This document shows positions 11,835 to 31,563 of a stretch of DNA of 64,000 nt, piece after piece (position 1 is the first letter of the stretch; each line of letters opens with the position of its first letter). The notes beneath the pieces were generated by a model. That model was not told the DNA's origin. It saw nothing but the letters and a program-made list of their open reading frames with translations, and did not search any database. A program made the translations under genes and the position numbers. Location: the NCBI RefSeq assembly GCF_023100685.1, contig NZ_CP090064.1, positions 1,240,001 to 1,304,000 of the forward strand, read 5' to 3'. The stretch is from Proteus vulgaris (GTDB taxonomy: Bacteria; Pseudomonadota; Gammaproteobacteria; Enterobacterales; Enterobacteriaceae).

Positions 11835-11856
11835 TTTAAAAATAATCTTATCCAAT

Positions 11857-11891: not shown

Positions 11892-12037
11892 ATTCATTAA
11901 GAAACAATCCATCTATTTATCCTAAATATTGTGTAATTTATTTCTAATAATTGGAAAAAATCACTTTTTCGACTTACACTCAATAAGTGACATTTTTTAG
12001 GTATGTTGTTTATATCATGACTATTTTAGGGGGAAAT

Positions 12038-12286
12038 ATGGGAATTCTTGCTTGGATTATCTTTGGTTTAATCGCAGGTATTTTGGCGAAATTCTTAATG
12101 CCAGGCTCTTATGATATTGGTCTGATATGGACTTGTATTCTTGGTATTGTAGGTGCGGTTGTCGGTGGTGCAATTAGTAGCTTCTTTGGCAAAGGTAAAG
12201 TGGATGGATTTAATTTCGGTAGCTTTGTTGTCGCTGTGATTGGTGCCATTGTAGTGCTCTATCTTGCAAAAATATTTGCAAGTTAA
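12038..12286 (+). CDS. GlsB/YeaQ/YmgE-family stress-response membrane protein
   Basis: An 82-residue, three-helix membrane protein of the transglycosylase-associated/GlsB family. It opens MGILAWIIFGLIAGILAKF, followed by GLIWTCILGIVGAVVGG and a last helix FVVAVIGAIVVLYLAKIF. Family members are general stress proteins of unclear biochemical function. The start is ATG 12038 with AGGGGGA directly upstream; an in-frame ATG 51 bases earlier lacks a ribosome site. It resembles E. coli YeaQ in length, but I cannot separate YeaQ from YmgE, so no symbol is given. Confidence 0.88.
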   Translation: MGILAWIIFGLIAGILAKFLMPGSYDIGLIWTCILGIVGAVVGGAISSFFGKGKVDGFNFGSFVVAVIGAIVVLYLAKIFAS

Positions 12287-12315
12287 TGCCTTCACACCAA
12301 ATAGATATTGATAAT

Positions 12316-12345
12316 AAACCCGCGTAATGCGGGTTTACTTTTTAA
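12316..12345. terminator. Bidirectional terminator between the GlsB-like gene and sseA
   Basis: AAACCCGC and GCGGGTTT form an 8-bp stem around GTAAT, with T- and A-rich flanks on both sides, in a convergent gap. An almost identical hairpin is at 34162. Confidence 0.8.
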
Positions 12346-12362
12346 AGCGAGGATTGATTAAA

Positions 12363-13205
12363 TCAGCATTCACAGGGAAGGGCACTTTCAGCACCCCATT
12401 GCGCCCAAGAGCCGTCATAAAGTGCGATGGATTGGCAACCTAATACGGTTAATGCTAAAAATAAAATTGCTGCAGTCATACCTGAGCCACAGGTAACAAT
12501 AATGGGTTGTGATAAATCAACACCGGCCTGTTCAAATATTTGCTTTAATTCAGTTTTATCTTTTAATTGCCCATCTATAACTAATTCATTCCAAGGCACA
12601 TTTTTACTGCCGGGGATATGTCCACTGCGCAAACCTGGGCGGGGTTCTGGTGCTCTACCATAAAAGCGATCTGCAGAACGTGCATCAACCATCTGTTTTT
12701 GCTTTGTCGCTAGATTATCAAGAAGTTGTTGTTTATTGGCATAACGCTGGGCGTGACGTTCAACTACAAATGGAGATTGTGCTGGTGTCTTGATAGCATC
12801 ACCTTGTTCTATAGCAAATCCAGCATCAACCCATGCTTGCAGACCGCCAGCAAGAATGCGCACATTATGACAACCTAGAGTTGTTAATGTCCACCAACCT
12901 CTAGGTGCGGAAAATAAGTTGCCTTGATCGTAAAGAATAACAGTTGTGGTATTAGAGATACCTAATTGCGTTAGCGTTTCTGAAAAGAGCGCATCAGATG
13001 GCAACATATGTGGCAATGTTGTCGTTTTATCTGCGATTTCATCGAGATTAAAAAAATAAGCATGTGGAATATGACGTTCAAGGTAAAGTGCTTGATAGTC
13101 AATCTGTTGAGTTGGCATAGGTGCGCTGACATCAAGGATCACAACATCAGTATTATGTTGATGTTCAAATAGCCATTTGGGTGTAACAAAGTAATCGTAT
13201 TCCAC
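12363..13205 (-). CDS. sseA: 3-mercaptopyruvate sulfurtransferase SseA
   Basis: Two-domain rhodanese that transfers sulfur from 3-mercaptopyruvate to thiol acceptors or cyanide, 280 residues. The N-terminal inactive rhodanese domain has VILDVSAPMP and ILYDQGNLFSAPRGWW. The C-terminal domain has DARSADRFYGRAPEPRPGLRSGHIPGS and the active-site loop CGSGMTA (Cys about 239), which is the mercaptopyruvate-type rather than thiosulfate-type loop. The start is GTG 13205 with GAGG about 7 bases upstream. The small membrane protein gene lies 13 bp upstream and is probably cotranscribed. Confidence 0.94.
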   Translation of the reverse strand: MEYDYFVTPKWLFEHQHNTDVVILDVSAPMPTQQIDYQALYLERHIPHAYFFNLDEIADKTTTLPHMLPSDALFSETLTQLGISNTTTVILYDQGNLFSAPRGWWTLTTLGCHNVRILAGGLQAWVDAGFAIEQGDAIKTPAQSPFVVERHAQRYANKQQLLDNLATKQKQMVDARSADRFYGRAPEPRPGLRSGHIPGSKNVPWNELVIDGQLKDKTELKQIFEQAGVDLSQPIIVTCGSGMTAAILFLALTVLGCQSIALYDGSWAQWGAESALPCEC

Positions 13206-13218
13206 GGTGCGACCTCAT

Positions 13219-13404
13219 TTATTTAGCAGAAGGTGAGCTGTCTGGGATAGCTGGAAATTGCTGTGCAGGTGATGTTTCAGGTTGAGTTTGTTCTGTTTCT
13301 ATGGGGGTTGTGGAGCGTGTATAGATATTTAAGCCCGCAAGGAAAACACCACCGATAGAACCGAAGGCAAGTAGTGCGATTATAACAATAATTATTTTTT
13401 TCAT
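13219..13404 (-). CDS. Small single-pass membrane protein, hypothetical
   Basis: A 61-residue protein: MKKIIIVIIALLAFGSIGG begins one hydrophobic helix (about residues 3-25), followed by a Pro-, Thr-, Gln- and Ser-rich tail ending SAK. It resembles the small anchored proteins of the DUF2633 kind only in architecture; I do not recognise the family. ATG 13404 is the most natural start, but ATG 13413 and 13434 are in frame and no strong ribosome site decides. It lies 13 bp upstream of sseA in the same direction. Confidence 0.55.
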   Translation of the reverse strand: MKKIIIVIIALLAFGSIGGVFLAGLNIYTRSTTPIETEQTQPETSPAQQFPAIPDSSPSAK

Positions 13405-13525
13405 AATGTTCATTTGCAGATGAATGTTGCGCAAAAGTATATCTAGATATGAAGTTGAAACAAGTGCTAAGTCAGTTTAATCGACAAATGATAGTGGTTA
13501 AAAAAGAGATGAATAGATAAATAAA

Positions 13526-13554
13526 CAGGCTATTTATTTTTTATAAATAGCCTG
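13526..13554 (-). terminator. Second terminator downstream of the DcuC-like gene
   Basis: A perfect 12-bp stem CAGGCTATTTAT/ATAAATAGCCTG with a 5-base loop. Read on the minus strand it is followed by TTTATTTATC. It probably backs up the terminator at 13611-13649. Confidence 0.65.
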
Positions 13555-13610
13555 AGTAAAGTTGGTGTTGGCGTTAATTATTTCAATCAAAGGTTACAGT
13601 CAATGATAAG

Positions 13611-13649
13611 AAAAAACCCCTTAAACTCAGGAGTAAATGAGTTTAAGGG
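13611..13649 (-). terminator. Intrinsic terminator of the MetC-like/DcuC-like operon
   Basis: Read on the minus strand, CCCTTAAACTC pairs with GAGTTTAAGGG (11 bp, 10-base loop) and is followed by GTTTTTTC. Confidence 0.88.
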
Positions 13650-13669
13650 CAAGGGGTAACACAACTTAA

Positions 13670-15037
13670 TTAGGAATATAAAAACCAGAATGTCATTGCT
13701 AAGTTCACAATAGCTGCGACAGCCATAGGAATGGCAGTACGTTTAACTATTTGGAATGGTGAGACATTTGCAATACCTGCAATGGCAACAATGGCGGCGG
13801 TAATTGGTGAAACAGTACGACCAAAGCTAGTCATTATTTGCATTGGTAAAATTAAGGTAATGACATCTACTTTTAAGAAAGCGGCAATTTTTGGTGTTAA
13901 AGCTGCAAATGAAAAGAATGCTGCATTACCAGATCCCATTAAAAAGGCCGCTAATGCAAGAATGGCACTCATTACAATGATCATTGCGGCAATGCCGAAA
14001 CCTGCATCTTGAGCAGAACTAATTAGCGTATCGACGGCACCACTTTTAAGTAAACCATTAGCAAAGAACTCACCAGACACAATTAACGAGACCACTAAGA
14101 CAAATTGCTTACCCATCCCTTCAAAGAACAGCATAAAGCTATTCATCACTGCTTTTGCATCACGTAAGCGAACATATTCGAAAAGAAGTGCAATTACGGT
14201 ACTAATAATCATTGCCGTGGTAACTTCTAATTTAATATAAGGGTGTAGCAAAGGACTGAAACCGATAATCAGAATTAAAGGGATCACTGGTAATAGAGCA
14301 TAAGACAGTGGAATTTTATTACCTTCTTCTTTTACAACATCAATGGTTGTTGGGTCAAAAACAAATCCTTCACGTTTATCCCACCAGCGTTGAATAAAAA
14401 AGTGAGTGATAGCAACCGCAATAATAATAGGAATAGTAACGGGTAACTGGTGCTGAACAAAATAGACGGCAGGTTCAATATCCGCTGTTTTTGCAGCCAT
14501 AATCACATTACCAGAGCCAGGACCATGGTCGATAAACTGGCAACACCCAATAACGGCTAAAGCGGAAAGTGGACTAATACCAGAACGAATTAATATCGGA
14601 TACATAGTGACCATTAACAGCATACCTAAACCAGCATGGCTAGGAATAAAAATAACCAAGATTTGGGTGACTAGAAATGAAATCACTAATAATAAGTAAG
14701 GTGATTTTATGGCTTTTAATGGTTTTTCAAAAATCGCAAATAAAGCACGGCTTGCGCCTACGTGTTCCATATAACGAGAGAAACCCGCAATAGCCATTAA
14801 CGTTAAACCAAGGCCAGCAAGACGAGAACTCATAATATCCGTGAAAATTTGAAAGACATCAAAATACTTAAATTGAGTTGTCTTATTTTCAGGTAATAAC
14901 GGATTAAGGTCGAGAGAAGCAGTTAGGAGCAATAACAACAAGCCCCCGAGTAATAATACTGGTTGAGGTTTATAACCTCGCGCCAGTAAATAAACCACCA
15001 ACGCAGTTACCAGCGCGGCAATGATTAAACCTGTCAT
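13670..15037 (-). CDS. DcuC-family dicarboxylate transporter (paralog)
   Basis: A 455-residue inner membrane carrier of the DcuC family. It shares the family layout with the true DcuC at 55 kb: start as two helices, then LAGLGLTLMAIAGFSRYMEHVGA, SPYLLLVISFLV, CCQFIDHGPGSGNVIMAA, GSGNAAFFSFAALTPK and FGRTVSPITAAIVAIAGIA. The substrate is probably a C4-dicarboxylate or a larger dicarboxylate; it is clearly diverged from DcuC. The start ATG 15037 has GGGGAA upstream. It lies 34 bp after the MetC-like gene in the same operon, and a catabolic lyase gene is divergent, so it may import the substrate of that pathway or exchange it for a product. Confidence 0.85.
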   Translation of the reverse strand: MTGLIIAALVTALVVYLLARGYKPQPVLLLGGLLLLLLTASLDLNPLLPENKTTQFKYFDVFQIFTDIMSSRLAGLGLTLMAIAGFSRYMEHVGASRALFAIFEKPLKAIKSPYLLLVISFLVTQILVIFIPSHAGLGMLLMVTMYPILIRSGISPLSALAVIGCCQFIDHGPGSGNVIMAAKTADIEPAVYFVQHQLPVTIPIIIAVAITHFFIQRWWDKREGFVFDPTTIDVVKEEGNKIPLSYALLPVIPLILIIGFSPLLHPYIKLEVTTAMIISTVIALLFEYVRLRDAKAVMNSFMLFFEGMGKQFVLVVSLIVSGEFFANGLLKSGAVDTLISSAQDAGFGIAAMIIVMSAILALAAFLMGSGNAAFFSFAALTPKIAAFLKVDVITLILPMQIMTSFGRTVSPITAAIVAIAGIANVSPFQIVKRTAIPMAVAAIVNLAMTFWFLYS

Positions 15038-15043
15038 AGAGAA

Positions 15044-15055
15044 TTCCCCGGTAAT
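15044..15055. repeat. 12-bp repeat, copy 1 (upstream of the DcuC-like gene)
   Basis: TTCCCCGGTAAT, reading ATTACCGGGGAA on the minus strand just before the DcuC-like start, where its GGGGAA can serve as ribosome site. The identical 12-mer occurs at 16277-16288. Confidence 0.6.
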
Positions 15056-15071
15056 GATGCAATATTTTTTG

Positions 15072-16247
15072 TTATTGGTTTAATGCTGAAAAAGCTTGTG
15101 TAATATCTGCAATAAGATCATCCGTTGCTTCAAGGCCAACATGTAAACGGACAAAAGGACCATGACCTTCACGCCAATTAGATGCTGTTCTTGCGCCAAC
15201 GACATTGGCGGGTAATGCAAGGCTTTCAAATCCGCCCCAAGATGCACCAATACCAAATAGTTCAAGTGCATCAATAAATTGCTCTGATTGTTTTGCGGTA
15301 AACTCTTGTTTAAATTCAATGGTTAATAGACCATTGCTGCCTTTGCAGTCACGTTTCCATAAATCATGACGAGGGTGATTAGGTAATTCAGGGAACCATA
15401 CTTTTTCAACTTCAGGACGAGTTTCTAGCCACTGTGCGATAGTCAAAGCTGATTTACCATGAGCAGCAATACGTTGACCTAATGTTCTCATTCCGCGAAG
15501 TACGAGTGCTGCATCATCAGGGCTACTGGCTTGGCCTAATGCTTCAGGTAATGCACCAATTTTTTCCCATGCTTTTTCATTCGCAACCATAATGCCCATC
15601 ATCACATCAGAGTGACCGCACAAATATTTAGTTGCTGCAATAACAGAGACATCAGCGCCTAATTCTAGCGGGTTATAAAGCCACGCAGAGCCCCATGTAT
15701 TATCAACACCGACAGGAATATTCCTTTCATGAGCAATACGGCAGATCTCAGGTAAATCGAGCATTTCATAAAGAAGTGATCCTGGTGATTCTACAAAAAT
15801 AAGCTGTGTATTTTGTTGAATTTTTTGCTCAAAATCTGAACCATCTGTTTTAAAGAAGCTATAAGCAATGTTATTGGGTTCAAGGAAAGCCGATGCGATT
15901 TTACGCACAGGTTCATAAACAGAATCTGCAAATAAAACATGTCCACCACTGCGCGCATATCCCATGATGGTTACAGCGATAGCTGCCAATCCAGTAGGGA
16001 ATAACTGTGCACGATGGCCGCCTTCTAATTCAGTTACTAATGCTTCTAATGCAAAAGCGGTTTCGGTGCCACGAGCGCCATAACTCAATACACGTTCTGT
16101 TGCACGACGATCACGCACATCACGCCAGCTTTTTATTGAGTCAAAAACAATAGTGCTGGCTCTCATAACTGGTGGATTAATGGGGCCAGAAGTTTTAATT
16201 TCTTGACGTCCGCTGTGTATCAATTTTGTTTGTTTATTTTGTTTCAT
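15072..16247 (-). CDS. Cystathionine beta-lyase-like PLP enzyme (Cys/Met metabolism family)
   Basis: A 391-residue PLP-dependent enzyme of the trans-sulfuration family. Landmarks: RVLSYGARGTETAFALEALVTELEGG, FPTGLAAIA, VESPGS (about 161-167), VDNTW (190-194) and the PLP lysine in ATKYLCGHSD (Lys about 207). Its length and motifs match MetC, which cleaves cystathionine to homocysteine, pyruvate and ammonia. Located with a dicarboxylate carrier and a C-N lyase, it may instead act on another C-S or C-N substrate. ATG 16247 has GGAGA 9 bases upstream. First gene of a two-gene minus-strand operon. Confidence 0.85.
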   Translation of the reverse strand: MKQNKQTKLIHSGRQEIKTSGPINPPVMRASTIVFDSIKSWRDVRDRRATERVLSYGARGTETAFALEALVTELEGGHRAQLFPTGLAAIAVTIMGYARSGGHVLFADSVYEPVRKIASAFLEPNNIAYSFFKTDGSDFEQKIQQNTQLIFVESPGSLLYEMLDLPEICRIAHERNIPVGVDNTWGSAWLYNPLELGADVSVIAATKYLCGHSDVMMGIMVANEKAWEKIGALPEALGQASSPDDAALVLRGMRTLGQRIAAHGKSALTIAQWLETRPEVEKVWFPELPNHPRHDLWKRDCKGSNGLLTIEFKQEFTAKQSEQFIDALELFGIGASWGGFESLALPANVVGARTASNWREGHGPFVRLHVGLEATDDLIADITQAFSALNQ

Positions 16248-16276
16248 TATTAATATCTCCGAATATAGAAATAGAG

Positions 16277-16288
16277 TTCCCCGGTAAT
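16277..16288. repeat. 12-bp repeat, copy 2 (upstream of the MetC-like gene)
   Basis: Identical TTCCCCGGTAAT, 30 bp upstream of the MetC-like start, here separate from that gene's own GGAGA ribosome site. The remaining 403-bp divergent region (16248-16650) is very AT-rich and shows no other clear element. Confidence 0.6.
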
Positions 16289-16650
16289 TAAATAAAATGA
16301 TTAATTACTGTTCGCGCTTATTTTGTTTCTATTATTTATAACAAACTTATTTATTTTTAAAATAGCTATTTTCTAAAAATGATGATCTTCCTCTAACTTT
16401 TTAGCATTAATTATTCTAATTAAATCTTAAATGTTATTTAAGATTCAAAAGTTATAACTAATAAATAAAGAGTTATTTATAACGCATTGAATTAGTGTTA
16501 TTTTTTAATTGATAAGAAATATTTGAAATTAGATTAAAATTATCAAAGTGTTTTTTTTGAGATTATATTGCATAAATAAAATAACAATCTAACAAGTCGT
16601 TTGATTAAAAAAACGATTTTTTTATTATTTTTTTAACAGGGGAAATAATT

Positions 16651-18018
16651 ATGGGAACCAGCGTTTTTGATTCAGTTTTATTAAAGAATTTATGGTCAAC
16701 AGAAGAGATGAGAACTATTTTTTCTGATAAAACAAGAATGCAAAATTGGCTTGATTATGAAGCGGCATTAGCTATTGAACAAGCTGAATTAGGTTTGATC
16801 CCGAAAGAGGCGGCAAAAGTTATTGCAGACACCGCGAAACTTGAAAAGCTCGATATGGATTATGTATTAGAACAAGTGCGTCTTACTCGCCATCCATTAG
16901 TGCCAACAATCCGTGGTTTAGAACATGCTTGTCCAGAACATTATGGGGAATATGTTCATTTTGGTCCAACTACACAAGATGTAATTGATACTGGCCTTGT
17001 ATTACAACTAAAAGATGCTCATCATACTTTTTTACGTGATATCAAAGTATTAGGTCGTGCATTGCTTTCATTAAGTGAACAACATCGCAACACACCAATG
17101 GTTGGGCGTACATTAGCATTACAAGCTCTGCCAATTACATTTGGTCATAAAACTGCAATTTGGTTAACAGAATTAGCACGTCATTATCAACGTCTTAAAG
17201 AGATCGAGCCTCGCTTATTTGTGGGTAGTGTGGTCGGTGCTGTGGGGACAAAAGCCTCTTTAAGCGATAAAGCTGATGAATTAGAAGCCCGTGTATTACA
17301 ACGCTTAGGTTTAGGTGTACCTGAAATTTCATGGCAACCTGCGCGTGATAGATTCAGTGAATATGGCATGTTAATCGGCTTAATTAGCGGTACGCTAGGT
17401 AAAATTGCCAATGAAATCCTACTATTAGCGCATAACGAAATTGATGAATTATCTGAGCCGTTTAGTAAAGGACAGGTAGGCTCTTCGACTATGCCACATA
17501 AACGTAATCCTGCCATTGTGGAAAATGCGGCTTGTGTAAGTAATACCCTAAAAGCCAATCTGTCTGTATTAACGGATATGATGAAACATCAGCATGAGCG
17601 TGATGGCGCAATTTGGAAAATGGAATGGAAAATCATGCCAGAAATGTGCCTGATGCTGTCTGTTATCTTCGATAATATGAAAACAGTATTAGGTGGATTA
17701 AATGTGCATGTAGAAAAAATGCGCGAAAATATGGATATTTTGGGTGGCTTTATGTTGGCAGAGCGTGTGATGTTTGCACTATCTGATAAAGCAGGTAAAC
17801 AAACTGCACATGAAATTGTGTATGAAGCATCAATGTCAGGGCAAGAAGAAGGTATAACTTTTGTTGAAGCAATTAATCGTGATACCCGTATTCGTGATCA
17901 CATTACTCAAGAAGAGCTTGATGCACTTTTAGATCCAACAACTTATGTAGGAAATGCACCAGCCCAAGTTGATCGTGTTGTTGCTCAAACTAAAGCCTCT
18001 GGCTGGCTAAATGACTAA
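16651..18018 (+). CDS. Fumarase/aspartase-superfamily lyase (adenylosuccinate lyase/PcaB-like)
   Basis: A 455-residue homotetrameric-type lyase of the superfamily that includes adenylosuccinate lyase, argininosuccinate lyase, aspartase and carboxymuconate cycloisomerase. Visible: RLTRHPLVPTIRGLE, HFGPTTQD (about 103-110, substrate/base region) and the signature loop GSSTMPHKRNP (277-287), which is nearest the PcaB/adenylosuccinate-lyase type. A C-terminal ADSL-like helical domain starts around 365. It is unlikely to be PurB, which has a different signature, so a catabolic C-N lyase releasing fumarate is my inference. The start ATG has AGGGGA 8 bases upstream. A terminator-like hairpin separates it from the MmgE/PrpD gene. 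Confidence 0.85.
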   Translation: MGTSVFDSVLLKNLWSTEEMRTIFSDKTRMQNWLDYEAALAIEQAELGLIPKEAAKVIADTAKLEKLDMDYVLEQVRLTRHPLVPTIRGLEHACPEHYGEYVHFGPTTQDVIDTGLVLQLKDAHHTFLRDIKVLGRALLSLSEQHRNTPMVGRTLALQALPITFGHKTAIWLTELARHYQRLKEIEPRLFVGSVVGAVGTKASLSDKADELEARVLQRLGLGVPEISWQPARDRFSEYGMLIGLISGTLGKIANEILLLAHNEIDELSEPFSKGQVGSSTMPHKRNPAIVENAACVSNTLKANLSVLTDMMKHQHERDGAIWKMEWKIMPEMCLMLSVIFDNMKTVLGGLNVHVEKMRENMDILGGFMLAERVMFALSDKAGKQTAHEIVYEASMSGQEEGITFVEAINRDTRIRDHITQEELDALLDPTTYVGNAPAQVDRVVAQTKASGWLND

Positions 18019-18051
18019 GTGACTTAATTACATCTAACCTTCTTATTATCT

Positions 18052-18077
18052 AAAAGCCGGTGAAATGCTGGCTTTTT
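18052..18077 (+). terminator. Intrinsic terminator/attenuator between lyase and MmgE/PrpD genes
   Basis: AAAAGCCGG pairs with CTGGCTTTT (9 pairs, one G-U) around a 7-base loop, followed by T residues. Because the next gene starts only 22 bp later without an obvious promoter, partial read-through is likely. Confidence 0.7.
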
Positions 18078-18098
18078 CTTATCTATTTCGAGGTGTTT

Positions 18099-19487
18099 AT
18101 GACATTGAGTCAGCAATTAGCCCAATTTATTACCACAACAACATTTTCTGATTTACCTGCTCAAGTTGTAGAGCGCGCTAAAATTCATTTATTAGATACA
18201 TTAGGCGTTGCACTTGCGGGTAGTGCGCAACAAAGTGCGATCCAAAGTCGTCAGGGCATTACTTTTTTACCTGATAGCCAAGGCACTATTCCAATTTGGG
18301 GCAGTTCACTCACAACAAGTACAACAGTTGCTGCATTGACAAATGGTATTGCATCACATGCATTAGATTTTGATGATACACATACTGATTCTATTGCACA
18401 TGGCAGCGCGGTATTAACGCCGATTGCTTTTGCATTAGGTGAGTCTATCGGCGCATCATCACAAGATATTTTAACGGCGTGGGTGATTGGTTGGGAAGTT
18501 GCAGCAAGAGTAGGACTGGCTAGCCATAGTGGATTTCATCAGCGTGGTTTTCATGCCACCGCGATTGCTGGTATTTTTGGGGCAACAGCTTGTGCAGCCT
18601 CACTATTAAAATTAACACCTGAACAAACTGTGAATGCATTAGGATTAACAGGAAGCCAAGCAGGAGGTGTGGCGGAATACCTTGCTAACAGTTCCTCTTC
18701 TAAATGCTTTCATGCGGGATGGGCTGCGCAATCAGGTATTATTGCTGCATCATTGGCAAAAGGTGGAATGACGGGCCCTGAAACGATATTTGAAGGTCGC
18801 TATAGCCTTTATCAAACCCATGGTATTCGAGAGCAAGCACAACCCGAACAAGTAGCCTTAGGATTAGGTGAAAAATGGGAATTTTTAAATGTTTCTATTA
18901 AGCCTTATCCTGTGTGTCATTTTGCTCATGCCACTATTGATTGTGGCCGTAATTTGCTGAAAAAAGGGATCACGGCTGATGATATTGAAAGCGTGGAGTG
19001 CGTGGTTGATCCTGTCGCAGCCGCTTTAATTTGCGAGCCACTTGAAACAAAATGGGCGCCTAAAACAGCTTATGGGGCAAAATTTAGTTTGCCGTGGCTA
19101 TTTGCAGTCGGATTTTTAGACAATGCGTTAACATTATCATCGTTATCTCTAGAAAATTTACAACGTGAAGATATTCAAAGGTTAGCGAAAAAAGTGAGTT
19201 ATCGCTATCCCGAAAAAGGCGAAATTCCATTCCCTACGTATTTTCCAGGATTAATTTTCGTGGCATTAAAGAATGGTGAGATGATCACAGAGAGGTTAGA
19301 TATTCAATATGGTAACCCACAAAATCCAATGACTGACAAAGATGTTATCAGCAAATTTTACGATAATGCCTCATTAGTAATAGAGGATAAACAATCGGCT
19401 CAACTCGTTGAAAAAGTATTGAATTTTGAAAAGAACACTCTTTCTGAGATAACACAATTATTGCGTATTGAAGAAGCGGCCCATTAA
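18099..19487 (+). CDS. MmgE/PrpD-family protein
   Basis: A 462-residue member of the family that contains 2-methylcitrate dehydratase, cis-aconitate decarboxylase and iminodisuccinate epimerase. Family marks: VERAKIHLLDTLGVALAG, HALDFDDTH (about 88-96), GFHQRGFHATAIAGIFGA (about 145-162), KCFHAGWAAQSGIIAASLAKGGMTGP and SIKPYPVCHFAHATID. Paired with a fumarase-superfamily lyase and not with prpB or prpC, so methylcitrate metabolism is unlikely. The iminodisuccinate epimerase analogy is the best available guess. The start is ATG 18099, with GAGGTG just upstream; an earlier in-frame ATG at 18060 would overlap the terminator hairpin. Confidence 0.85.
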   Translation: MTLSQQLAQFITTTTFSDLPAQVVERAKIHLLDTLGVALAGSAQQSAIQSRQGITFLPDSQGTIPIWGSSLTTSTTVAALTNGIASHALDFDDTHTDSIAHGSAVLTPIAFALGESIGASSQDILTAWVIGWEVAARVGLASHSGFHQRGFHATAIAGIFGATACAASLLKLTPEQTVNALGLTGSQAGGVAEYLANSSSSKCFHAGWAAQSGIIAASLAKGGMTGPETIFEGRYSLYQTHGIREQAQPEQVALGLGEKWEFLNVSIKPYPVCHFAHATIDCGRNLLKKGITADDIESVECVVDPVAAALICEPLETKWAPKTAYGAKFSLPWLFAVGFLDNALTLSSLSLENLQREDIQRLAKKVSYRYPEKGEIPFPTYFPGLIFVALKNGEMITERLDIQYGNPQNPMTDKDVISKFYDNASLVIEDKQSAQLVEKVLNFEKNTLSEITQLLRIEEAAH

Positions 19488-19519
19488 GTTAAACATAATG
19501 TCAATAAGATGATGATATG

Positions 19520-19550
19520 AAGGATTGGTTTGAGCTACCAATCCTTTTTT
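19520..19550 (+). terminator. Intrinsic terminator after the MmgE/PrpD gene
   Basis: AAGGATTGG pairs with CCAATCCTT (9 bp), followed by TTTT. The T run overlaps the stop codon of the converging FabZ-like gene. Confidence 0.88.
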
Positions 19551-19974
19551 ATTGCCTTGCACACATAAATTCAGATGTACAAACAATCTTCTCACCAATA
19601 CGAACAACACCAGAAAAACTAACAATAGTACGGCGTTGACGACGAAATTCGATTTCAATAAGTAGTTGATCGCCTGCTTTTACTGCATCATAAAAACGTG
19701 CATTTTTTATACTGGCAAAATAACATTGCTGACCTTCTTCCATGGGAGAAAGATAGTAATGTGCAAGAACTCCAGCGGCTTGAGCCATGCTTTCAAGGAG
19801 CAGTAAGGGAGGGTAAAATTCGCCAAAAACAACTGTGTCATTGGTGGTGATATTTTTAATTGCGATTAATTTACCACTAGCAAGTTCAGCTGGTTCAGAA
19901 ATAACACCATCAATTAATAAGAATGGATAACGATGAGGTAAGATTTCCATTATTTCACTGACGGAAATGGGCAT
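19549..19974 (-). CDS. FabZ-like hotdog-fold protein lacking the catalytic histidine
   Basis: A 141-residue protein aligning with 3-hydroxyacyl-ACP dehydratase FabZ: ILPHRYPFLLID near the N-terminus, LLESMAQAAGVLA in the central helix, and a C-terminal EFMCARQ like FabZ MCARS. In FabZ the catalytic His lies in GHFPGKPIFPG, 14 residues before the catalytic Glu. Here that stretch is GEFYPP (residues 51-56), with Glu in place of His and about five residues missing; the Glu in LLES (about 61) remains. It is therefore probably not an ordinary dehydratase. The start ATG 19974 has GAGGAGA upstream. Its location in the catabolic island suggests a paralog, not the housekeeping fabZ. Confidence 0.75.
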   Translation of the reverse strand: MPISVSEIMEILPHRYPFLLIDGVISEPAELASGKLIAIKNITTNDTVVFGEFYPPLLLLESMAQAAGVLAHYYLSPMEEGQQCYFASIKNARFYDAVKAGDQLLIEIEFRRQRRTIVSFSGVVRIGEKIVCTSEFMCARQ

Positions 19975-22281: not shown

Positions 22282-24390
22282 ATGTCTCTTTCTCAATCAG
22301 TCAAAAATCAAATAAGTCAGTGGTATAAAGCCCTACCAGAGCATATTGAAGGGTTTATTCCGCGTGCGCCACAGCGTGAAATGATAGCTGAAGTGGCTAA
22401 GACTTTTTCTGATGAAATGGGACGACATCTAGTGATTGAAGCTCCAACTGGGATAGGTAAAACACTTTCTTATCTTATTCCAGGTATTGCTATTAGCCGC
22501 GATGAAAAAAAACCGCTGATTATCAGTACGGCCAATGTGGCACTGCAAGATCAGATTTTTAGCAAAGATCTCCCATTACTTAAAAAAATCATCCCAGATC
22601 TCACGTTCACGGGGGCTTTTGGCCGTGGGCGCTATTTATGTCCACGTAATTTAGACGCGATTTGTGCAACAGAAGGTGAACAAATCGACTTAATGTTTTT
22701 GCTTGAGGATAAAGTGGATCTGGCGACTAGTGCAGAAAGAGAAATTTGCCAAGAGCTAAAAAATGATTTTACCAGTTTCGGTTGGGATGGTTTGCGTGAT
22801 CACCATAAACGGGCATTAACAGACAGCTTATGGCGCAAAATTAGCACCGATAAAATGAACTGTTTAGGACGTAATTGCCAATATTATCATCGCTGCCCTT
22901 TTTTTATTGCACGCCGTGAAATTGATGAAGTAGATGTGGTTATTACCAATCACGCTTTAGTGATGGCAGCAATGGAAAGTGAATCAGTATTACCTGATGC
23001 AAAAAATCTGCTATTAGTATTGGATGAAGGTCATCATATTCCTGATGTTGCGCGAGATGCGCTTGAAGTTGAAGGGGAAATAACCTTAGCTACCCTTAAT
23101 AATCAGCTGGATAATATTACTCGTCATGTTAGTCAATATTTAGCGCAATTTATTCCTGTAAGACCACCTAAATTGGCTGACCCTATTCGTTTTGATGCTC
23201 ATATTGCTAAGTTACGTGAGGCTTATCAAGAGGTTGATACATTTACGCGTGCGTTATTACCAGAACGTAGTGAACAAGATGAATATCTCTTTCCATTAGG
23301 CGAATTACCTGAACAACTTCTGTTAAGTTGCCAGACATTATTTAAGCTAACGGATGGTTTAAAAATGCTGGGTGAAGCCATGTTAAATGATTTAACAGAG
23401 CGTACAGCAAAAGAAGATGTTGTGCGTTTACATAGTGCCATTTTAACGACCAGTAGAATGGTCGGTTATTTAGAGAATATGGCAAAATTGTGGCGCTTAG
23501 CCACATTAGAGCAAACCTCAAAAGCGCCTGTATCGAAATGGCTCACTCGCCGTTACGATAAAAAGCAGTCTCATCTTTATTTTCATTGCGCAGGTATTCG
23601 AGTCAGCGAACAGCTGACACAATTGTTATGGAAAAATATCCCACATGTGGTTATCACATCTGCAACGTTACGCTCATTAAATAGCTATTCTCGCATTCAA
23701 GAGCTAACAGGATTAAGTGAGCATTTTGATGATCGCTTTATTACGTTATCTTCACCTTTTGAACATAAAGATCAAGGTAGATTAGTTATTCCTAAAATGC
23801 GCTATGAACCGACCATGAGCCATGAGCGCGAACATTTAAAAGAGATGGCGCGTTATTTTCGTCAAAGCATGGAAGAGAATAACCATCGAGGACAATTGGT
23901 TCTATTTAGTAGCCAACGGGCAATGGAAGGCTTTTTAGAAGAAGTGAAAGACTTACGTTTATGCTTATTGGTACAAGGGGATCAGCCTCGTTATAGATTG
24001 GTAGAAACACATTGTAAGCGCATTGATGCAGGTGATAATAGTGTATTGATAGGTTTGCAATCATTTGCCGAAGGACTTGACTTAAAAGGCGATTATTTAA
24101 CGCAGGTGCATATTCATAAAATTGCTTTTCCACCCGTGACTGATCCGGTGATTGTGACAGAGGGGGAATGGCTTAAATCGCTGAAACGTTATCCTTTTGA
24201 AGTGCAGAGCTTGCCAAGTGCATCGTTTAATTTAATTCAGCAAGTTGGGCGTCTTATCCGTAGCCATCATTGCCACGGTGAAATTATCATTTATGACAGA
24301 CGCTTGCTAACAAAAAATTATGGTTCGCGTTTATTAACAGCATTACCTGTTTTCCCTATTTATCAACCTGAGATGCCTAAAGAGAAATAA
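22282..24390 (+). CDS. dinG: ATP-dependent DNA helicase DinG
   Basis: SOS-induced XPD-like 5'-3' helicase that removes R-loops and D-loops, 702 residues (E. coli 716). Walker A is in EAPTGIGKT. The four Fe-S cysteines are visible in RYLCPRN, then CLGRNCQYYHRC. The DEAH-like box is LDEGHH. The C-terminal helicase half has VVITSATL, VLIGLQSFAEGLDLKG and IQQVGRLIRS. Preceded by a LexA box and followed by a long gene-free region. Confidence 0.95.
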   Translation: MSLSQSVKNQISQWYKALPEHIEGFIPRAPQREMIAEVAKTFSDEMGRHLVIEAPTGIGKTLSYLIPGIAISRDEKKPLIISTANVALQDQIFSKDLPLLKKIIPDLTFTGAFGRGRYLCPRNLDAICATEGEQIDLMFLLEDKVDLATSAEREICQELKNDFTSFGWDGLRDHHKRALTDSLWRKISTDKMNCLGRNCQYYHRCPFFIARREIDEVDVVITNHALVMAAMESESVLPDAKNLLLVLDEGHHIPDVARDALEVEGEITLATLNNQLDNITRHVSQYLAQFIPVRPPKLADPIRFDAHIAKLREAYQEVDTFTRALLPERSEQDEYLFPLGELPEQLLLSCQTLFKLTDGLKMLGEAMLNDLTERTAKEDVVRLHSAILTTSRMVGYLENMAKLWRLATLEQTSKAPVSKWLTRRYDKKQSHLYFHCAGIRVSEQLTQLLWKNIPHVVITSATLRSLNSYSRIQELTGLSEHFDDRFITLSSPFEHKDQGRLVIPKMRYEPTMSHEREHLKEMARYFRQSMEENNHRGQLVLFSSQRAMEGFLEEVKDLRLCLLVQGDQPRYRLVETHCKRIDAGDNSVLIGLQSFAEGLDLKGDYLTQVHIHKIAFPPVTDPVIVTEGEWLKSLKRYPFEVQSLPSASFNLIQQVGRLIRSHHCHGEIIIYDRRLLTKNYGSRLLTALPVFPIYQPEMPKEK

Positions 24391-24994
24391 TTTTTTATTA
24401 CTTTATAGAACTCTCATTTTTATTAGTGATTTATGCATCCATAACTTGTTTTTATCTGGTTATTAACGCGTTATCAATAAATAGAGGCTATTTACTATAA
24501 CTTTTTATTTTTAATAAAAGTGAGGTTGTATTTTTTTATTAAAAAACACATCTCACTTTATAGTTAAAATTACTTAATCATTTCCTTGTTTTTTTAGGTG
24601 TTAATGTATCTAATATTATTAACTTGTATTTTTTATGAATCTTATTAATATTTAAAAAATAAAAATACACTATGTTTAAAATATAATAATTAATTCACAT
24701 AAATTAATATAATTATAACAAAATAAATATTCATATAATAAAATGCTTATTTTTATTTATTTAGAAAAAGTGTATACTTTATTTAGATATTATTCATGTG
24801 ATATTTTTTAAATTATATATTTTTTTATTTCATTTTATGAAATGAACCTTTTTTATTTAGTTTAGATAAACGCTCAATAAATTTATAAAAAATAACAATG
24901 CATTTAATTTATTGATTTTTAATTGTTTTTTATTTTTATTTATTGGTTTTTTCATCTGTTTTTATAGATTTTTTTTTGTGCTTTTATTTTTATT
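24391..24994. other. Long AT-rich intergenic region, first part
   Basis: About 600 bases with no plausible gene. The only structure noted is an 8-bp stem (AAAGTGAG near 24517, CTCACTTT near 24552) around an AT-rich loop; read on the minus strand it is followed by T-rich sequence. No repeat family or remnant gene recognised. Confidence 0.5.
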
Positions 24995-25008
24995 TTGATA
25001 TGTGTCAA
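24995..25008 (+). promoter_or_regulatory. FNR-type site (anaerobic activator)
   Basis: TTGATATGTGTCAA matches the FNR consensus TTGAT-N4-ATCAA at nine of ten half-site positions. A -10-like TAATAA at 25029-25034 would put transcription start near 25041-25043, about 41 bases from the centre of the site, which is class II FNR activation spacing. Confidence 0.7.
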
Positions 25009-25040
25009 TAAAATTAATTATATTTAATTAATAAGGTTGA

Positions 25041-25166
25041 AAGCTGTTTTTTTTAAATCCCCTTTCAGTACAATATCTCTCATAAACACCCTATCACTTA
25101 TTGAATTAAAAAAATCTCTCCTGATTTTCTTAAATGAAACGATGATTGCTGATAGGGTGTTTTTTA
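25041..25166 (+). ncRNA. Candidate FNR-dependent small RNA or hydrogenase mRNA leader
   Basis: From the inferred start near 25041 the sequence can form a short 5' hairpin (TGAAAG with CTTTCA). Then comes a perfect 13-bp stem AAACACCCTATCA (25084-25096) with TGATAGGGTGTTT (25150-25162), ending in T residues. The 53-base loop is unstructured and contains the anti-Shine-Dalgarno-like CTCTCCT. This is an FNR-activated RNA of about 125 nt with a terminator-like end, analogous in design to E. coli FnrS but without recognisable sequence similarity. It could alternatively be an attenuator in the leader of the hydrogenase operon 165 bp downstream. Confidence 0.45.
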
Positions 25167-25330
25167 CATAAATAATTCATTTTATATTAACTCGATACTT
25201 ATTTTAAGTATTGGTTTTTATTAATTAAATAATACAAATATTTTTAACAAAAATAAAATTCAACTCTTTATATATTGTTACCTTTAATAGGTAATTTTAT
25301 TCATATATTAAAGCAGGAGCATTGTAAAAA

Positions 25331-26887
25331 ATGAAATCTCTTCTTCCTACAAAAGAAGAAAGTGACGAGAAATTATTATCTCGACGTTCTTTCTTTTCAT
25401 TTGCTGGAAAGGTAAGTCTTGCCGCTGGGGTAACCGCTGTCACAGCGGGATGTGATGGCAATATTTCTGGTGGTACAGGTTGGGTTCCTGAGCAATATAA
25501 TGCTAAAGGTACTTTCCCCGTCCAAGTAAGAGGCCGTATTCCTATTGATCCTAACAATGTCGCCATTTGCCGTGATGACAAAAAATGTATTTTATGTGGC
25601 CAATGCGTTGAAGTGTGTGAAAAAGTACAAACCGTAATGGGAAACTATGATTTACCGTTAATTGATAGTGTTCCTTGTATCGATTGTGGTCAATGTACTC
25701 TTTGGTGCCCAACGGGGGCAATAACAGAAGTTGACGACACAGATAAAGTTATTAGAGCGTTGTTAGATCCGACTTTGCATGTTGTTGTACAAACCGCGCC
25801 AGCTACAAGAGTTGCATTAGGTGAAGAGTTTGGAATGCAGCCTGGTGAGGACATTGAGTTACTTCAAGTAGCGGCACTTAGAAAGTTAGGTTTTGATAAA
25901 GTTTTTGATACTAACTTTTCTGCTGATTTAACCATTATGGAAGAAGCCACAGAATTACTGCAAAGAATTAAAAATAATGGTGTATTGCCTCAATTCACTT
26001 CTTGTTCTCCAGGTTGGGTGAAATTTTGTGAAATGTTTTATCCAGAATTAATTCCTAATCTCTCTTCTGCAAAGTCACCAATGACAATGCTTGGTTCGAT
26101 GATAAAAACATATTACGCCAAAGAGCAAGATATCGATCCTAGTAAAATTGTTTCTGTTGCCATTATGCCGTGTACTGCTAAAAAATCAGAAGCGGCTCGT
26201 CCCGAAATGAATGGTGCAAGTGTGTTATGGGAAAAGCCCGATCTTCGTGATGTTGATATCGTTCTAACAACAAGAGAGCTCGCAAGATTAATCAAAAGTC
26301 ACAATATCGATTTAACCTCACTTCAGCCCGCAAATTATGACCGTTTGATGTCTGAATATAGCGGTGCTGGCGCTATTTTTGGTGTCACTGGCGGTGTTAT
26401 GGAAGCCGCAGTGAGAACCAGTTATTACTTTATTACAGGCGAAAGACCACCAGAACCTTTATTTAATTTACAACCTGTACGCGGATTAGAAGGTATTAAA
26501 GAAGCTACTTTAAATATACCAAGTGTCGGTGAAATTCGTGTCGCAGTCTGTTCTGGTATGGGAAATGCTCGTCCCGTTTTAGAAGCCATTCAAAAAGGGG
26601 AAAAAGCGTGGCATTTCGTCGAGTTTATGGGATGCCCAGGAGGATGTATTGCTGGTGGCGGTCAACCTCGTTCTGCATTACCACCTTCTGATGAAATTCG
26701 AGCATTACGCATGAAAGCGCTGTATAGCAAAGATGAACGCGCCACCATTCGCTTAAGTTATGAAAATAGTGAAATTCAAAGCATTTATAAACAATTTTTA
26801 GGCGAGCCTTGTGGTGAACGTGCTCATCAATTGCTTCATACGCATTATCAAGATCGCAGTATTCATTTTAACAAAAAGAAAGCTTAA
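25331..26887 (+). CDS. Tat-exported [FeFe]-hydrogenase catalytic subunit
   Basis: A 518-residue group A-type iron-only hydrogenase, presumably catalysing H2 oxidation or evolution at the periplasmic face. The N-terminus has a twin-arginine motif SRRSFF (17-22), a hydrophobic stretch and a Cys at 41 (possible lipobox-like TAGC). Two [4Fe-4S] ferredoxin motifs follow: Cys 86/89/92/96 and 116/119/122/126. H-cluster motifs: TSCSPGW (223-229), MPCTAKK (Cys 281) and EFMGCPGGC (Cys 435 and 439). The residue before Pro in the first motif is Ser 226, where characterised enzymes have the ligand Cys. It is followed by HybA-like and HybB-like genes; no maturase is nearby. Very weak ribosome site, AGGAG about 13 bases upstream. 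Confidence 0.9.
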   Translation: MKSLLPTKEESDEKLLSRRSFFSFAGKVSLAAGVTAVTAGCDGNISGGTGWVPEQYNAKGTFPVQVRGRIPIDPNNVAICRDDKKCILCGQCVEVCEKVQTVMGNYDLPLIDSVPCIDCGQCTLWCPTGAITEVDDTDKVIRALLDPTLHVVVQTAPATRVALGEEFGMQPGEDIELLQVAALRKLGFDKVFDTNFSADLTIMEEATELLQRIKNNGVLPQFTSCSPGWVKFCEMFYPELIPNLSSAKSPMTMLGSMIKTYYAKEQDIDPSKIVSVAIMPCTAKKSEAARPEMNGASVLWEKPDLRDVDIVLTTRELARLIKSHNIDLTSLQPANYDRLMSEYSGAGAIFGVTGGVMEAAVRTSYYFITGERPPEPLFNLQPVRGLEGIKEATLNIPSVGEIRVAVCSGMGNARPVLEAIQKGEKAWHFVEFMGCPGGCIAGGGQPRSALPPSDEIRALRMKALYSKDERATIRLSYENSEIQSIYKQFLGEPCGERAHQLLHTHYQDRSIHFNKKKA

Positions 26888-26905
26888 AGATTGAGGAAAC
26901 ACATT

Positions 26906-27730
26906 ATGTCTAAAGGTGTATTAGTCGATCTTACTAAGTGTATCGGCTGTGGTAGTTGTACAGTTGCATGTAAAATGTACAACGAAAATAAATGGATAGA
27001 AGAAAGGCAACCTACCAGTGGCGAAAATGCAAAATTAGCAGATGAAAACTGGACGGTTATAAAAACGGTTACTGTTGAAAAAGAAGATAAAGCGGTTTGG
27101 CGTTACGTTAAAGAGCAATGTTTTCACTGTATTGATCCTGCTTGTGCTTCAGCATGTTTTGCAAAAGCATTCCAAAAAACACCCGCGGGGCCCGTGGTTT
27201 ATTATCCCGATCTCTGTGTAGGATGCCGTTATTGTATGGTGGCATGTCCATTTGATATTCCTAAATATGAATGGGAAAAATCACTTCCTTATGTCACTAA
27301 ATGCATGATGTGTTCTTCGCGTGTAGAAGAAGGGCAATCTCCGGCTTGTGTCGCAGTATGCCCAACACAGGCTTTAGTTTTTGGTGATAGGCAAACCTTA
27401 TTAGAAAAAGCGAAAGAAACCATTACGAATAACTCTAACTATGTTCAACATATTTATGGTGAAAAAGAAGTTGGAGGAACTGAATGGCTCTACATCTCTG
27501 ATGTGCCTTTTAATGAACTTGGATTTAAAACAGGCTTAACTGAAAAACCACTCTCTTCTTATACTTCTGATTTTATGAAATATACGCCAATTGCGGGGGC
27601 AACTTGGGCGGTGATCCTTGGTGGTATTGCAATGTTTAATCACCGAAAAGATAGGGTCATTCACGATGAGCAATTGCATCAAGAACCGAAGAAAAATAGT
27701 AAGGATGATGAAACAAGGAGATCAGAATGA
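26906..27730 (+). CDS. HybA-like four-cluster ferredoxin subunit with C-terminal anchor
   Basis: A 274-residue electron-transfer subunit with four [4Fe-4S] clusters of the DmsB/HybA/FdnH type: Cys 12/15/18/22, 72/75/80/84, 104/107/110/114 and 133/136/148/152. A single C-terminal membrane helix (about 227-247, TPIAGATWAVILGGIAMF) is followed by a charged tail. It has no signal peptide, so it would either travel with the Tat-bearing hydrogenase subunit by hitchhiking or face the cytoplasm. Start ATG 26906 has TGAGGAA upstream. The stop overlaps the next gene by 4 bp. Inferred to carry electrons between the hydrogenase and the membrane subunit. Confidence 0.88.
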   Translation: MSKGVLVDLTKCIGCGSCTVACKMYNENKWIEERQPTSGENAKLADENWTVIKTVTVEKEDKAVWRYVKEQCFHCIDPACASACFAKAFQKTPAGPVVYYPDLCVGCRYCMVACPFDIPKYEWEKSLPYVTKCMMCSSRVEEGQSPACVAVCPTQALVFGDRQTLLEKAKETITNNSNYVQHIYGEKEVGGTEWLYISDVPFNELGFKTGLTEKPLSSYTSDFMKYTPIAGATWAVILGGIAMFNHRKDRVIHDEQLHQEPKKNSKDDETRRSE

Positions 27731-28872
27731 GTGTTATCGATAATACGACCAGCTTTGGTAAGTGGCGTTTTCCTATGACACCTGTACGCTGGGTACTTGT
27801 TGTCATTAGCTTGATTGCAGTTGGACTTATTTTATTTCGTTTAGTCACTGGATTGGGATTAGTAACCAATCTTAACGATGAGTGGCCTTGGGGCCTTTGG
27901 ATCTCGTTTGACGTGATGTGTGGTGTAGCGCTAGCTGGTGGGGGATATGGTACTGCATTAATTGTTTATGTTTTTAAACAAGAACAATTTTCAAGTATTG
28001 CGCGTAGTGCTGCATTAACCTCATTAATTGGCTATTTATTGGTGATGGTAGGGCTTTTCCTTGATATTGGGCAATGGTGGAATTTTTGGCGGCCACTAGT
28101 TTCTCAAGGACATAGTTCAGTACTTTTTGAAGTTTTTATTTGCGTTTCCGTTTATACCAGTGTGCAATTAATTGAATTTGGCGAAGTTGCCACTGAACGG
28201 ATTGGGCGTAAATATCATAAGTTTTTCCGAAAAATATTACCTGTATTATTAGTAATCGGTATTGCTATTCCATCAATGCACCAATCATCACTCGGTGCGC
28301 TTTATTTATTAATGGTAGATAAATTACATCCATTGTGGTGGTCGCCAATTATCTTCTTTCAATTTTTAATATCGTCATTCTTTGTTGGTCCTGCAATGAT
28401 AGCTGTTGAAACTGCATTAGCAGGTAGAGCATTTAATCATAAAGTACCCATGTCTGTATTAAGTGGATTAATTCGAATTTCAGGTTATGCAATGCTTGTT
28501 TATTTGGCTCTAAAATTCGGCAGTATTATTGCTGAAGGTAAAGTGAGTTACCTTTTTGAAGGTAGTTTTGAATCTTTATTCTTTTGGATTGAAGTCGGTT
28601 TTGGCGTTATTGTCCCACTAATTATCTGTTTTTCTCCATTAATAAAACGTCGTGGTTGGGTTGCTACATTTGGTGCTTTAGTGGCTTCTGGCGTTATTTT
28701 AAATCGTTATAACGTTGTGGTGACAGGCATGGTTACATCAACAGGCGTATCCTATTGGCCATCATTACCAGAATTAACCATCACTATTGGTCTTGTTGCG
28801 ATGGGGGTTCTTGCTTATTTATTTATCTGTGAGAATTTCCGTATTATTGAACATGATGAAACCAATCATTAA
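27727..28872 (+). CDS. HybB/NrfD-family integral membrane subunit
   Basis: A 381-residue polytopic protein with nine or ten hydrophobic helices, resembling E. coli HybB (about 392). Shared landmarks: PWGLWISFDVMCGVALAGGGY, LFLDIGQWWNFW, SSVLFEVFICVSVYTSVQLIEF, PSMHQSSLGALYLL, KLHPLWWSP and LFFWIEV. NrfD/HybB proteins bind quinone and carry no haem. ATGA overlap with the Fe-S gene shows coupling. With the two upstream genes it forms a membrane hydrogenase complex that probably exchanges electrons with the quinone pool. A terminator follows immediately. Confidence 0.9.
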   Translation: MSVIDNTTSFGKWRFPMTPVRWVLVVISLIAVGLILFRLVTGLGLVTNLNDEWPWGLWISFDVMCGVALAGGGYGTALIVYVFKQEQFSSIARSAALTSLIGYLLVMVGLFLDIGQWWNFWRPLVSQGHSSVLFEVFICVSVYTSVQLIEFGEVATERIGRKYHKFFRKILPVLLVIGIAIPSMHQSSLGALYLLMVDKLHPLWWSPIIFFQFLISSFFVGPAMIAVETALAGRAFNHKVPMSVLSGLIRISGYAMLVYLALKFGSIIAEGKVSYLFEGSFESLFFWIEVGFGVIVPLIICFSPLIKRRGWVATFGALVASGVILNRYNVVVTGMVTSTGVSYWPSLPELTITIGLVAMGVLAYLFICENFRIIEHDETNH

Positions 28873-28878
28873 CAGATT

Positions 28879-28910
28879 AAATGCCCAATTCAACGTTGGG
28901 CATTTTTATT
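28879..28910 (+). terminator. Intrinsic terminator of the hydrogenase operon
   Basis: AAATGCCCAA pairs with TTGGGCATTT (10 bp, 7-base loop), followed by TTTATTT. Confidence 0.9.
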
Positions 28911-31056: not shown

Positions 31057-31563
31057 TTAATTCTCAATATTGGCTTCAATGAACCATAAGAATTTATCAA
31101 GATCACGTGATGCTGCAGTAAACATATCGGCGGTATCTTCGTCTTCAACTTCATCAATGGCTTTACGAATATCATTTGCAACGATAGCGTAACGATCAGC
31201 CAGTGCTTTTAAGTGGTCTTGTACATCATGAATATCCAGAGGATAAGCTTTCAATGGAGTTTTCTTGCTGACAACTTGTGCAGTGCCTAATACAGTGCCA
31301 CCTAATTGAACAATACGCTCTGCAAATTCATCAGTGTGCTCATTTATGGTGTCACGGAAGCCGTCAACCATTTCATGAACAGAAATAAAGTTTCTACCAC
31401 GCATATTCCAGTGAGCTTGTTTTGTGATGAGAGATAGGTCGATAAACTGCGTCACCATCTGTTGCAGTAACTCGATAGCGTGCAGTTTTACGCTGTCATC
31501 GAGATTATTACGGGTATAAAGCAGGGTTGAAGGTGTGGATTTGACTAATTTAGCAGTACTCAT
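31057..31563 (-). CDS. dps: DNA-binding ferritin-like protein Dps
   Basis: Starvation and stationary-phase DNA protection protein; forms a dodecamer that oxidises Fe2+ with H2O2 and compacts DNA. The 168 residues carry the ferroxidase motif: KQAHWNMRG (His/Trp), [22 protein letters not shown] (Asp/Glu) and the Lys-containing N-terminal arm MSTAKLVKS. Start ATG 31563 with GGGAGA upstream. It neighbours rhtA as in E. coli, in the same direction. The upstream region (31564-31772) holds its promoter, but I could not assign OxyR or sigma-S sites. Confidence 0.95.

Follow-up and report, generated by a model that had tools for sequence, protein, structure and literature searches.

A Tat-signal-bearing [FeFe]-hydrogenase module without recognisable HydE, HydF or HydG in a Proteus vulgaris genome

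Closest described systems and the Proteus module

Desulfotomaculum gibsoniae is described as having a membrane-associated extracellular [FeFe]-hydrogenase with a twin-arginine translocation (Tat) motif, encoded by Desgi_0926-0928, among six [FeFe]-hydrogenases in total (PMC4148979). The present analysis concerns a stretch of 64,000 nucleotides from Proteus vulgaris (contig NZ_CP090064.1, positions 1,240,001 to 1,304,000 of the forward strand; hereafter the window), in which three adjacent genes encode an [FeFe]-type catalytic subunit, HydA, together with an iron-sulfur subunit and an integral membrane subunit. As in D. gibsoniae, the Tat motif is carried by the catalytic subunit of a three-gene, membrane-associated unit (PMC4148979), and a homolog from Desulfoscipio gibsoniae (P0055), which would correspond to Desgi_0926, is 62% identical to Proteus HydA. 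In contrast to D. gibsoniae with its six enzymes, a single HydA is present in Proteus, without recognisable maturases. A Tat-borne membrane [FeFe]-hydrogenase module is known in kind, here in an unexpected host; the lack of recognisable maturases under strong selection is the new part. The sequence data lead us to favour, tentatively, a periplasmic quinone-linked [FeFe]-hydrogenase that is maintained by selection and whose maturation follows a route independent of HydE, HydF and HydG.

The first-pass annotation of the window had considered the combination of an [FeFe] catalytic subunit with a HybA/HybB-type module unusual. The D. gibsoniae precedent speaks otherwise, as does an RRxF motif, motif-level evidence of Tat export, near the N-terminus of 119 of the 120 closest homologs of HydA (the best 120 of 7999 scored proteins, to which all homolog counts below refer).

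The partner subunits resemble those of hydrogenase-2 (HybOABC, [NiFe] group 1c), present in E. coli and Proteus, with scores under the HybA and HybB cut-offs; however, the catalytic subunit of hydrogenase-2 is of the [NiFe] type, while that of the module is [FeFe]. Because the partners resemble HybA and HybB, a route to menaquinone shared with hydrogenase-2 appears likely by analogy. HmcB and HmcC of the Hmc complex, which functions in sulfate respiration, also match the partners below the cut-offs, but the named neighbours of the Proteus module are dinG and a TonB receptor gene, and no Hmc cytochrome is among these two. HydA1 of the HydABC complex of A. woodii (7q4v), an electron-bifurcating, NAD-linked cytoplasmic complex, represents the second-best sequence match in the PDB. 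Entamoeba and some fornicates share with Proteus the presence of HydA without HydE, HydF and HydG, but these organisms are eukaryotic and their enzymes are not Tat-exported membrane modules.

Catalytic subunit and partner subunits

The translated open reading frames agree in position with those listed in the first-pass annotation (25331-28872), and profiles and motifs are in line with its description of an enterobacterial [FeFe]-type catalytic subunit with a Tat signal and HybA- and HybB-like partners. HydA scores 491.6 bits on TIGR02512, the model for group A catalytic subunits (cut-off 405.95), and exceeds the cut-offs of the Pfam domains Fe_hyd_lg_C (319.5 bits) and Fe_hyd_SSU (81.1 bits). 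On NF040763, which describes the NADH-dependent group A6 hydrogenase, it reaches 595.4 bits and stays below the cut-off of 765. The three H-cluster motifs are present as L1 TSCSPGW, L2 MPCTAKKSE and L3 FMGCPGGCIAGGGQP, accompanied by two ferredoxin motifs (CILCGQCVEVC and CIDCGQCTLWC). An AlphaFold model of HydA (mean predicted local distance difference test score 72.6, low at residues 1-71 and 88-114) matches chains of HydABC, DdHydAB and CpI, with a best E value of 6.9e-44 and a template modelling score of 0.73 on the query. Furthermore, 15 of the 21 plasmid records matching HydA cover at least 80% of it (36.7-50.6% identity), and several of these are annotated as [FeFe] hydrogenase. Tat-exported non-hydrogenases with HybA/HybB-like partners do exist, formate dehydrogenase-N and Hmc being examples, and HydA could in principle be a misnamed iron-sulfur protein of this sort and no hydrogenase at all. 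Against the profile, domain, plasmid-homolog and structure matches, this reading is already disfavoured and extremely improbable, and the classification which the first-pass annotation had proposed as a check gives no sign in the sequence of a non-hydrogenase homolog.

In the L1 cysteine pair the second residue is serine, a departure from TSCCPxW. Serine as the mark of a dead enzyme was set aside, since it is found in 64 of the 120 close homologs and since A. woodii HydA1 displays the identical TSCSPGW. Seventeen out of 20 listed active-site and proton-path positions of CpI are identical in HydA; the differing positions S232A, C300S and Q325M are common to 71, 64 and 53 of the 120 homologs, respectively. 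Of these 20 positions, C299, E279, E282, S319 and R286 are carried in titles of PDB variant entries. E279, S319, E282 and R286 of CpI are proton-path residues; together with C299 they correspond to E205, S245, E208, R212 and C225 of HydA, all five being invariant in the 120 homologs. The first cysteine of this path (CpI C299) is described as the proton donor (PMC3485046). From residue 60 onward, HydA departs from the family at none of 135 near-invariant columns (conservation of 97% or more in 117 homologs, that is, the 120 without P0001-P0003), while P0005-P0120 average 0.9 departures in the same test.

The N-terminus of HydA carries the sequence SRRSFFSF, followed by AGC at positions 39-41, with Cys41 and Asp42. 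A cysteine occupies the lipid site in 116 of the 120 homologs; in HydA it is preceded by a small residue, but Thr is found at position -3. Cys41 is a putative lipid-anchor cysteine. Asp follows it directly in all seven Proteus genomes that carry hydA, and Asp at position +2 of E. coli lipoproteins favours retention in the inner membrane.

For the iron-sulfur subunit, the ATG at 26906 was preferred as start over the listed TTG at 26891. Its 16 cysteines form four four-cysteine motifs, as expected from the four-cluster subunit announced by the first-pass annotation, and no signal peptide of its own was seen. The best NCBIfam match is HmcB with 290.1 bits (cut-off 420), and the HybA equivalog NF008134 gives 217.8 bits (cut-off 263). 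The membrane subunit, with eight hydrophobic segments in a simple Kyte-Doolittle scan, passes NrfD (58.8 bits, cut-off 25.8), reaches 279.2 bits on the HybB equivalog NF008133 (cut-off 450) and has HmcC as second match with 249.7 bits (cut-off 550). The labels HybA-like and HybB-like thus hold insofar as HmcB/HybA and HybB/HmcC are the best or second-best matches; as class assignments they do not, none of these models being passed. A gap of 18 bp separates hydA from the iron-sulfur gene, which in turn overlaps the membrane subunit gene by 4 bp. One terminator-like site lies directly 3' of the third gene, in a scan that found nine such sites compared with 4.0 expected.

Maturases, selection and distribution

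An active [FeFe]-hydrogenase is considered to require three dedicated maturases. In the P. vulgaris genome, a single contig of 4.39 Mb scored as 100% complete, profile searches detected no HydE, HydF or HydG over cut-off, and HydA can consequently not be assigned to a HydEFG-dependent system. HydE and HydF were searched for in this genome, HydG in addition in 20 Proteus genomes, several of which consist of more than one contig, and in 12 other HydA-bearing genomes; none of the 20 contains HydG over cut-off. The doubt about maturases that the first-pass annotation had raised for the window hereby extends to the whole genome for HydE, HydF and HydG and to 20 Proteus genomes for HydG. It had named lack of all maturases together with lack of H2 activity as grounds for abandoning the hydrogenase; of these two, the profile searches bear out the lack of maturases.

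Diverged or unassembled maturases might have been missed, as profile searches alone were used and the scope for HydE and HydF was the own genome. This explanation is very improbable, however, given a one-contig, complete genome in which the best matches have other identities: the best HydG-profile match is ThiH (492.6 bits on the ThiH model, cut-off 380), the HydE profile has its two best matches in ThiH and BioB, and the top HydF-profile match scores highest as MnmE, reassignments which refer to the matched stretches of three hits. With the same HydG model, moreover, six HydA-bearing relatives score 523-548 bits.

HydA over cut-off occurs in nine of 394 genomes of the order sample, including the P. 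vulgaris genome. Two other members of the order, G280 (locus L040) and G344 (L048), have HydA of other types with intact L1 and L2 and no HydG over cut-off. Among four genomes reached through named loci, a Planctomycetaceae metagenome-assembled genome (MAG) contains HydG (459.4 bits), whereas a Telmatospirillum MAG and two MAGs of 0.9 Mb yielded none over cut-off. Overall, HydG is over cut-off in seven of the 12 other HydA-bearing genomes checked. Reports of HydA without maturases already exist for a few species and for eukaryotes: all three maturases are missing from Entamoeba (PMC4967309), and a maturase-less HydA is described for some fornicates, with reference to claims of maturase-free activity (PMC9161772). 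The cited claims of such activity stem from protists and from heterologous or cell-free systems.

The hydA gene is under purifying selection and is no relic. Across 21 pairs from the seven carriers, the mean ratio of nonsynonymous to synonymous divergence (dN/dS) is 0.024 (range 0.014-0.096) at a mean dS of 0.615, compared with 0.036 and 0.042 for the partner genes, 0.085 for the adjacent receptor gene, and 0.021, 0.014 and 0.026 for dinG, dps and rhtA of the flanks. A decayed gene or pseudogene was ruled out by this ratio and by intact frames in all seven carriers.

Strong selection on hydA, the lack of recognisable maturases and a likely redundancy with two [NiFe] hydrogenases are also what would be seen if the protein served a purpose other than H2 turnover. 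Equipped with the cubane and ferredoxin clusters and no diiron unit, it might act as a periplasmic electron carrier or reductase that exchanges electrons with the quinone pool via the HybA/HybB-like pair; eukaryotic Nar1/NARF provide the precedent of a hydrogenase fold without H2 chemistry. This is the main rival, which we consider rather unlikely: some relaxation would be expected in such a protein, but every listed proton-path residue is retained, and none of the 135 near-invariant positions is changed. The hydrogenase matured independently of HydEFG is favoured over it.

The gene is present in seven of the 20 Proteus genomes; at an E value of 0.001 eight match, but G017 does so by a 20-bit ferredoxin-like stretch alone and was not counted. 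Named records with 96-98% identical HydA belong to Proteus alimentorum, P. columbae and P. faecis. All seven HydA matches in a sample of 60 relatives fall into Proteus, one of 41 genera. In a family sample of 392 genomes the own genome alone matches; this sample holds at least four other Proteus, all of them non-carriers. Among the matches listed, the nearest homologs outside Proteus records show 83% and 81% identity, followed by Telmatospirillum with 68%. The Telmatospirillum locus (L036) likewise has adjoining iron-sulfur and membrane subunits. At positions 11533-19930 of this locus, the module directly adjoins [NiFe] genes, one of which encodes a small subunit resembling that of hydrogenase-2 and is accompanied by a separate HybA and HybB.

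Derivation of the cassette from a phage or a plasmid was rejected, as a search of viral contigs was empty and all 21 plasmid matches are below 60% identity. On Cetobacterium and Paraclostridium plasmids, relatives of HydA are annotated as rubrerythrin, and probably represent the hydrogenase-rubrerythrin fusion known from Clostridium perfringens. No PADLOC defence family was detected among the four cassette proteins. A literature search for Proteus or Providencia with 'FeFe hydrogenase', a term that misses the bracketed spelling '[FeFe] hydrogenase', returned no relevant paper.

The cassette, its flanks and candidate regulatory elements

In all seven carriers (G015 being represented by the named record L034) the upstream region, the three module genes and a TonB receptor gene occupy the same site between dinG and dps, all frames being intact (Table 1). 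In nine of nine non-carriers compared, out of 13, this site is empty, with a dinG-dps gap of 60-70 bp; G001, G005, G008 and G013 were left out of the comparison. The right-flank gene is presumably dps, as judged from its translation. For the last 968 bp of the receptor gene, none of the 13 non-carriers shows a DNA match. The receptor was discarded as a HydA-specific gene, since Xenorhabdus, Providencia, Yersinia and Gilliamella are among the sources of its homologs.

In a tree built for 16 genomes on dinG, dps and rhtA, several splits of which are weakly supported, carriers are interleaved with non-carriers. Between G002 and G003, dS is 0.009 for hydA and 0.023 for the HybB-like gene compared with 0.236 for dinG, whereas the iron-sulfur gene (0.167) and the receptor gene (0.149) are about as far apart as dps (0.164), which makes the exchange a mosaic. 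The hydA of P. vulgaris differs from that of G002/G003 by a dS of 0.38, with 0.56 for dinG; in many other carrier pairs hydA is more diverged than dinG. These dS contrasts and the interleaved tree suggest that the cassette probably moved or recombined between Proteus species, although repeated loss may also be compatible with the pattern. Whatever makes HydA useful is provided in each host by the cassette genes, by the Proteus core or from outside the cell.

The patchy distribution, the interleaved carriers and the near-identical hydA of G002 and G003 would also suit an enzyme that lies idle in most cells and becomes active when maturases arrive in trans, for instance from a plasmid or another strain, so that the cassette spreads without regular benefit. 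A dN/dS of about 0.02 at a dS of about 0.6 is unlike an idle gene, however, and not one of the 20 genomes, several of them in multiple contigs, contains HydG over cut-off. We therefore regard this scenario as improbable.

Table 1. Coordinates of the module, its flanks and candidate regulatory elements in the window
Feature	Position	Strand	Basis
hydA, catalytic subunit of a group A [FeFe]-hydrogenase with Tat signal, putative lipoprotein, 518 residues	25331..26887	+	Open reading frame, profiles, structure
HybA/HmcB-like iron-sulfur subunit, four [4Fe-4S] motifs, 274 residues	26906..27730	+	Profiles, motif scan
HybB/HmcC/NrfD-like integral membrane subunit, 381 residues	27727..28872	+	Profiles, hydrophobicity scan
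Terminator-like hairpin, 11 pairs, then T-rich tail	28879..28905	+	Terminator scan
TonB-dependent outer membrane receptor, 677 residues	28934..30967	+	Profiles, locus comparison
dps-like gene, right flank	31057..31563	-	Translation, locus comparison
dinG, left flank in carriers and 9 non-carriers	22282..24390	+	Profile, locus comparison
AT-rich upstream region of cassette, missing from empty sites	24391..25330	+	Locus comparison
FNR-like palindrome TTGATATGTGTCAA	24995..25008	+	Pattern scan, carrier alignment
TACAAT, -10-like, 7/7 carriers	25069..25074	+	By eye in alignment
RNA-type hairpin, then T-run; candidate small RNA or leader	25086..25165	+	Alignment, folding

The G+C content drops to 14% at 24500-24999, within the AT-rich intergenic stretch 24391-25100. 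The FNR-like palindrome has one mismatch to the consensus TTGATNNNNATCAA; each of the seven carriers keeps the half-sites with no more than one change, in contrast to the variable 4-bp spacer. In this AT-rich window, FNR-like patterns with two mismatches are common (112 matches, 79.7 expected). The cassette is probably expressed anaerobically through FNR, as the conserved half-sites suggest. TACAAT was not listed by a promoter scan, which found 18 sites compared with 30.9 in shuffles.

Downstream of this element, the RNA-type hairpin folds with -21.6 kcal/mol, a figure given without shuffle comparison. It contains a 50-bp run (25110-25159) that is invariant in all seven carriers; a run of 50 occurred in none of 10000 column shuffles of the region (largest 21), and seven genes contain no run longer than 37. 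The hairpin loop CUCCUG (25118-25123) complements CAGGAG (25314-25319) of the ribosome-binding region of hydA. The hairpin may therefore act as a small RNA or leader controlling hydA. The invariant core, looked for in the window and the loci compared, is absent from the nine empty-site loci. A known RNA family was rejected, because the single Rfam match (E 0.23) lies below the gathering score; elsewhere, plasmids yielded three weak matches (E 0.3) and E. coli yielded no match.

Proposed function

Tat would export HydA in the folded state, probably with the iron-sulfur subunit as passenger, since the latter shows no signal of its own. HydA would be held at the inner membrane by an N-terminal lipid on Cys41, with Asp at position +2, and by the HybB-like subunit. 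H2 would then be oxidized, or protons reduced, on the periplasmic side, and electrons would pass from the ferredoxin clusters to the four-cluster subunit and on to the NrfD-like protein, where menaquinone would receive them, a path suggested by the HybA/HybB-like partners. As the organism lacks recognisable HydEFG, the diiron part of the H-cluster would have to be supplied independently of these maturases. Besides HydA and its two partners, the cassette encodes only the TonB receptor, which points to core Proteus enzymes or the import of a ready-made iron complex as the source. That a bacterial [FeFe]-hydrogenase obtains its diiron centre in one of these ways is doubtful, if conceivable. In the boldest form, the iron complex would enter via the TonB receptor, and the apo-enzyme, once exported, would receive it in the periplasm. 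Import is made less likely by the receptor homologs in enterobacteria such as Xenorhabdus and Providencia, genera from which HydA is not known; none of the 391 other genomes of the family sample has HydA.

Several observations weigh against a periplasmic hydrogenase matured without HydEFG. The L1 serine of HydA stands where CpI has a cysteine ligand of the cubane, and a literature search on whether this serine binds the cubane found nothing. The iron-sulfur subunit displays no membrane segment in a simple hydrophobicity scan. Six of the eight other HydA-bearing genomes of the order sample do possess HydG. HydA of Shewanella oneidensis is reported to be inactive when produced in E. coli or Anabaena without its maturases (PMC7460606). 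In addition, all 20 Proteus genomes contain two matches to [NiFe] large subunits, one covering the full length and the other the first 68 positions, which are probably of the Hyb and Hyf type as in P. mirabilis; with two [NiFe] hydrogenases, a further hydrogenase is therefore not needed for H2 cycling. For P. mirabilis, PMC10745698 describes the two [NiFe] hydrogenases Hyb and Hyf, contains no occurrence of 'FeFe' in its text, and reports that viologen reduction was lost in both tested media in a hybC hyfE double mutant. This result is neutral toward the cassette.

In conclusion, a culturable enterobacterial genus combines a single intact HydA under strong selection with a lack of recognisable maturases, which opens the question of maturation to a simple test. 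An enzyme type that normally needs three helpers is either finished otherwise in Proteus, has another job, or is inactive. If HydA turns over H2, this would reveal a new maturation route of biotechnological use; if it does not, the hydrogenase fold would have a new role in a quinone-linked chain.

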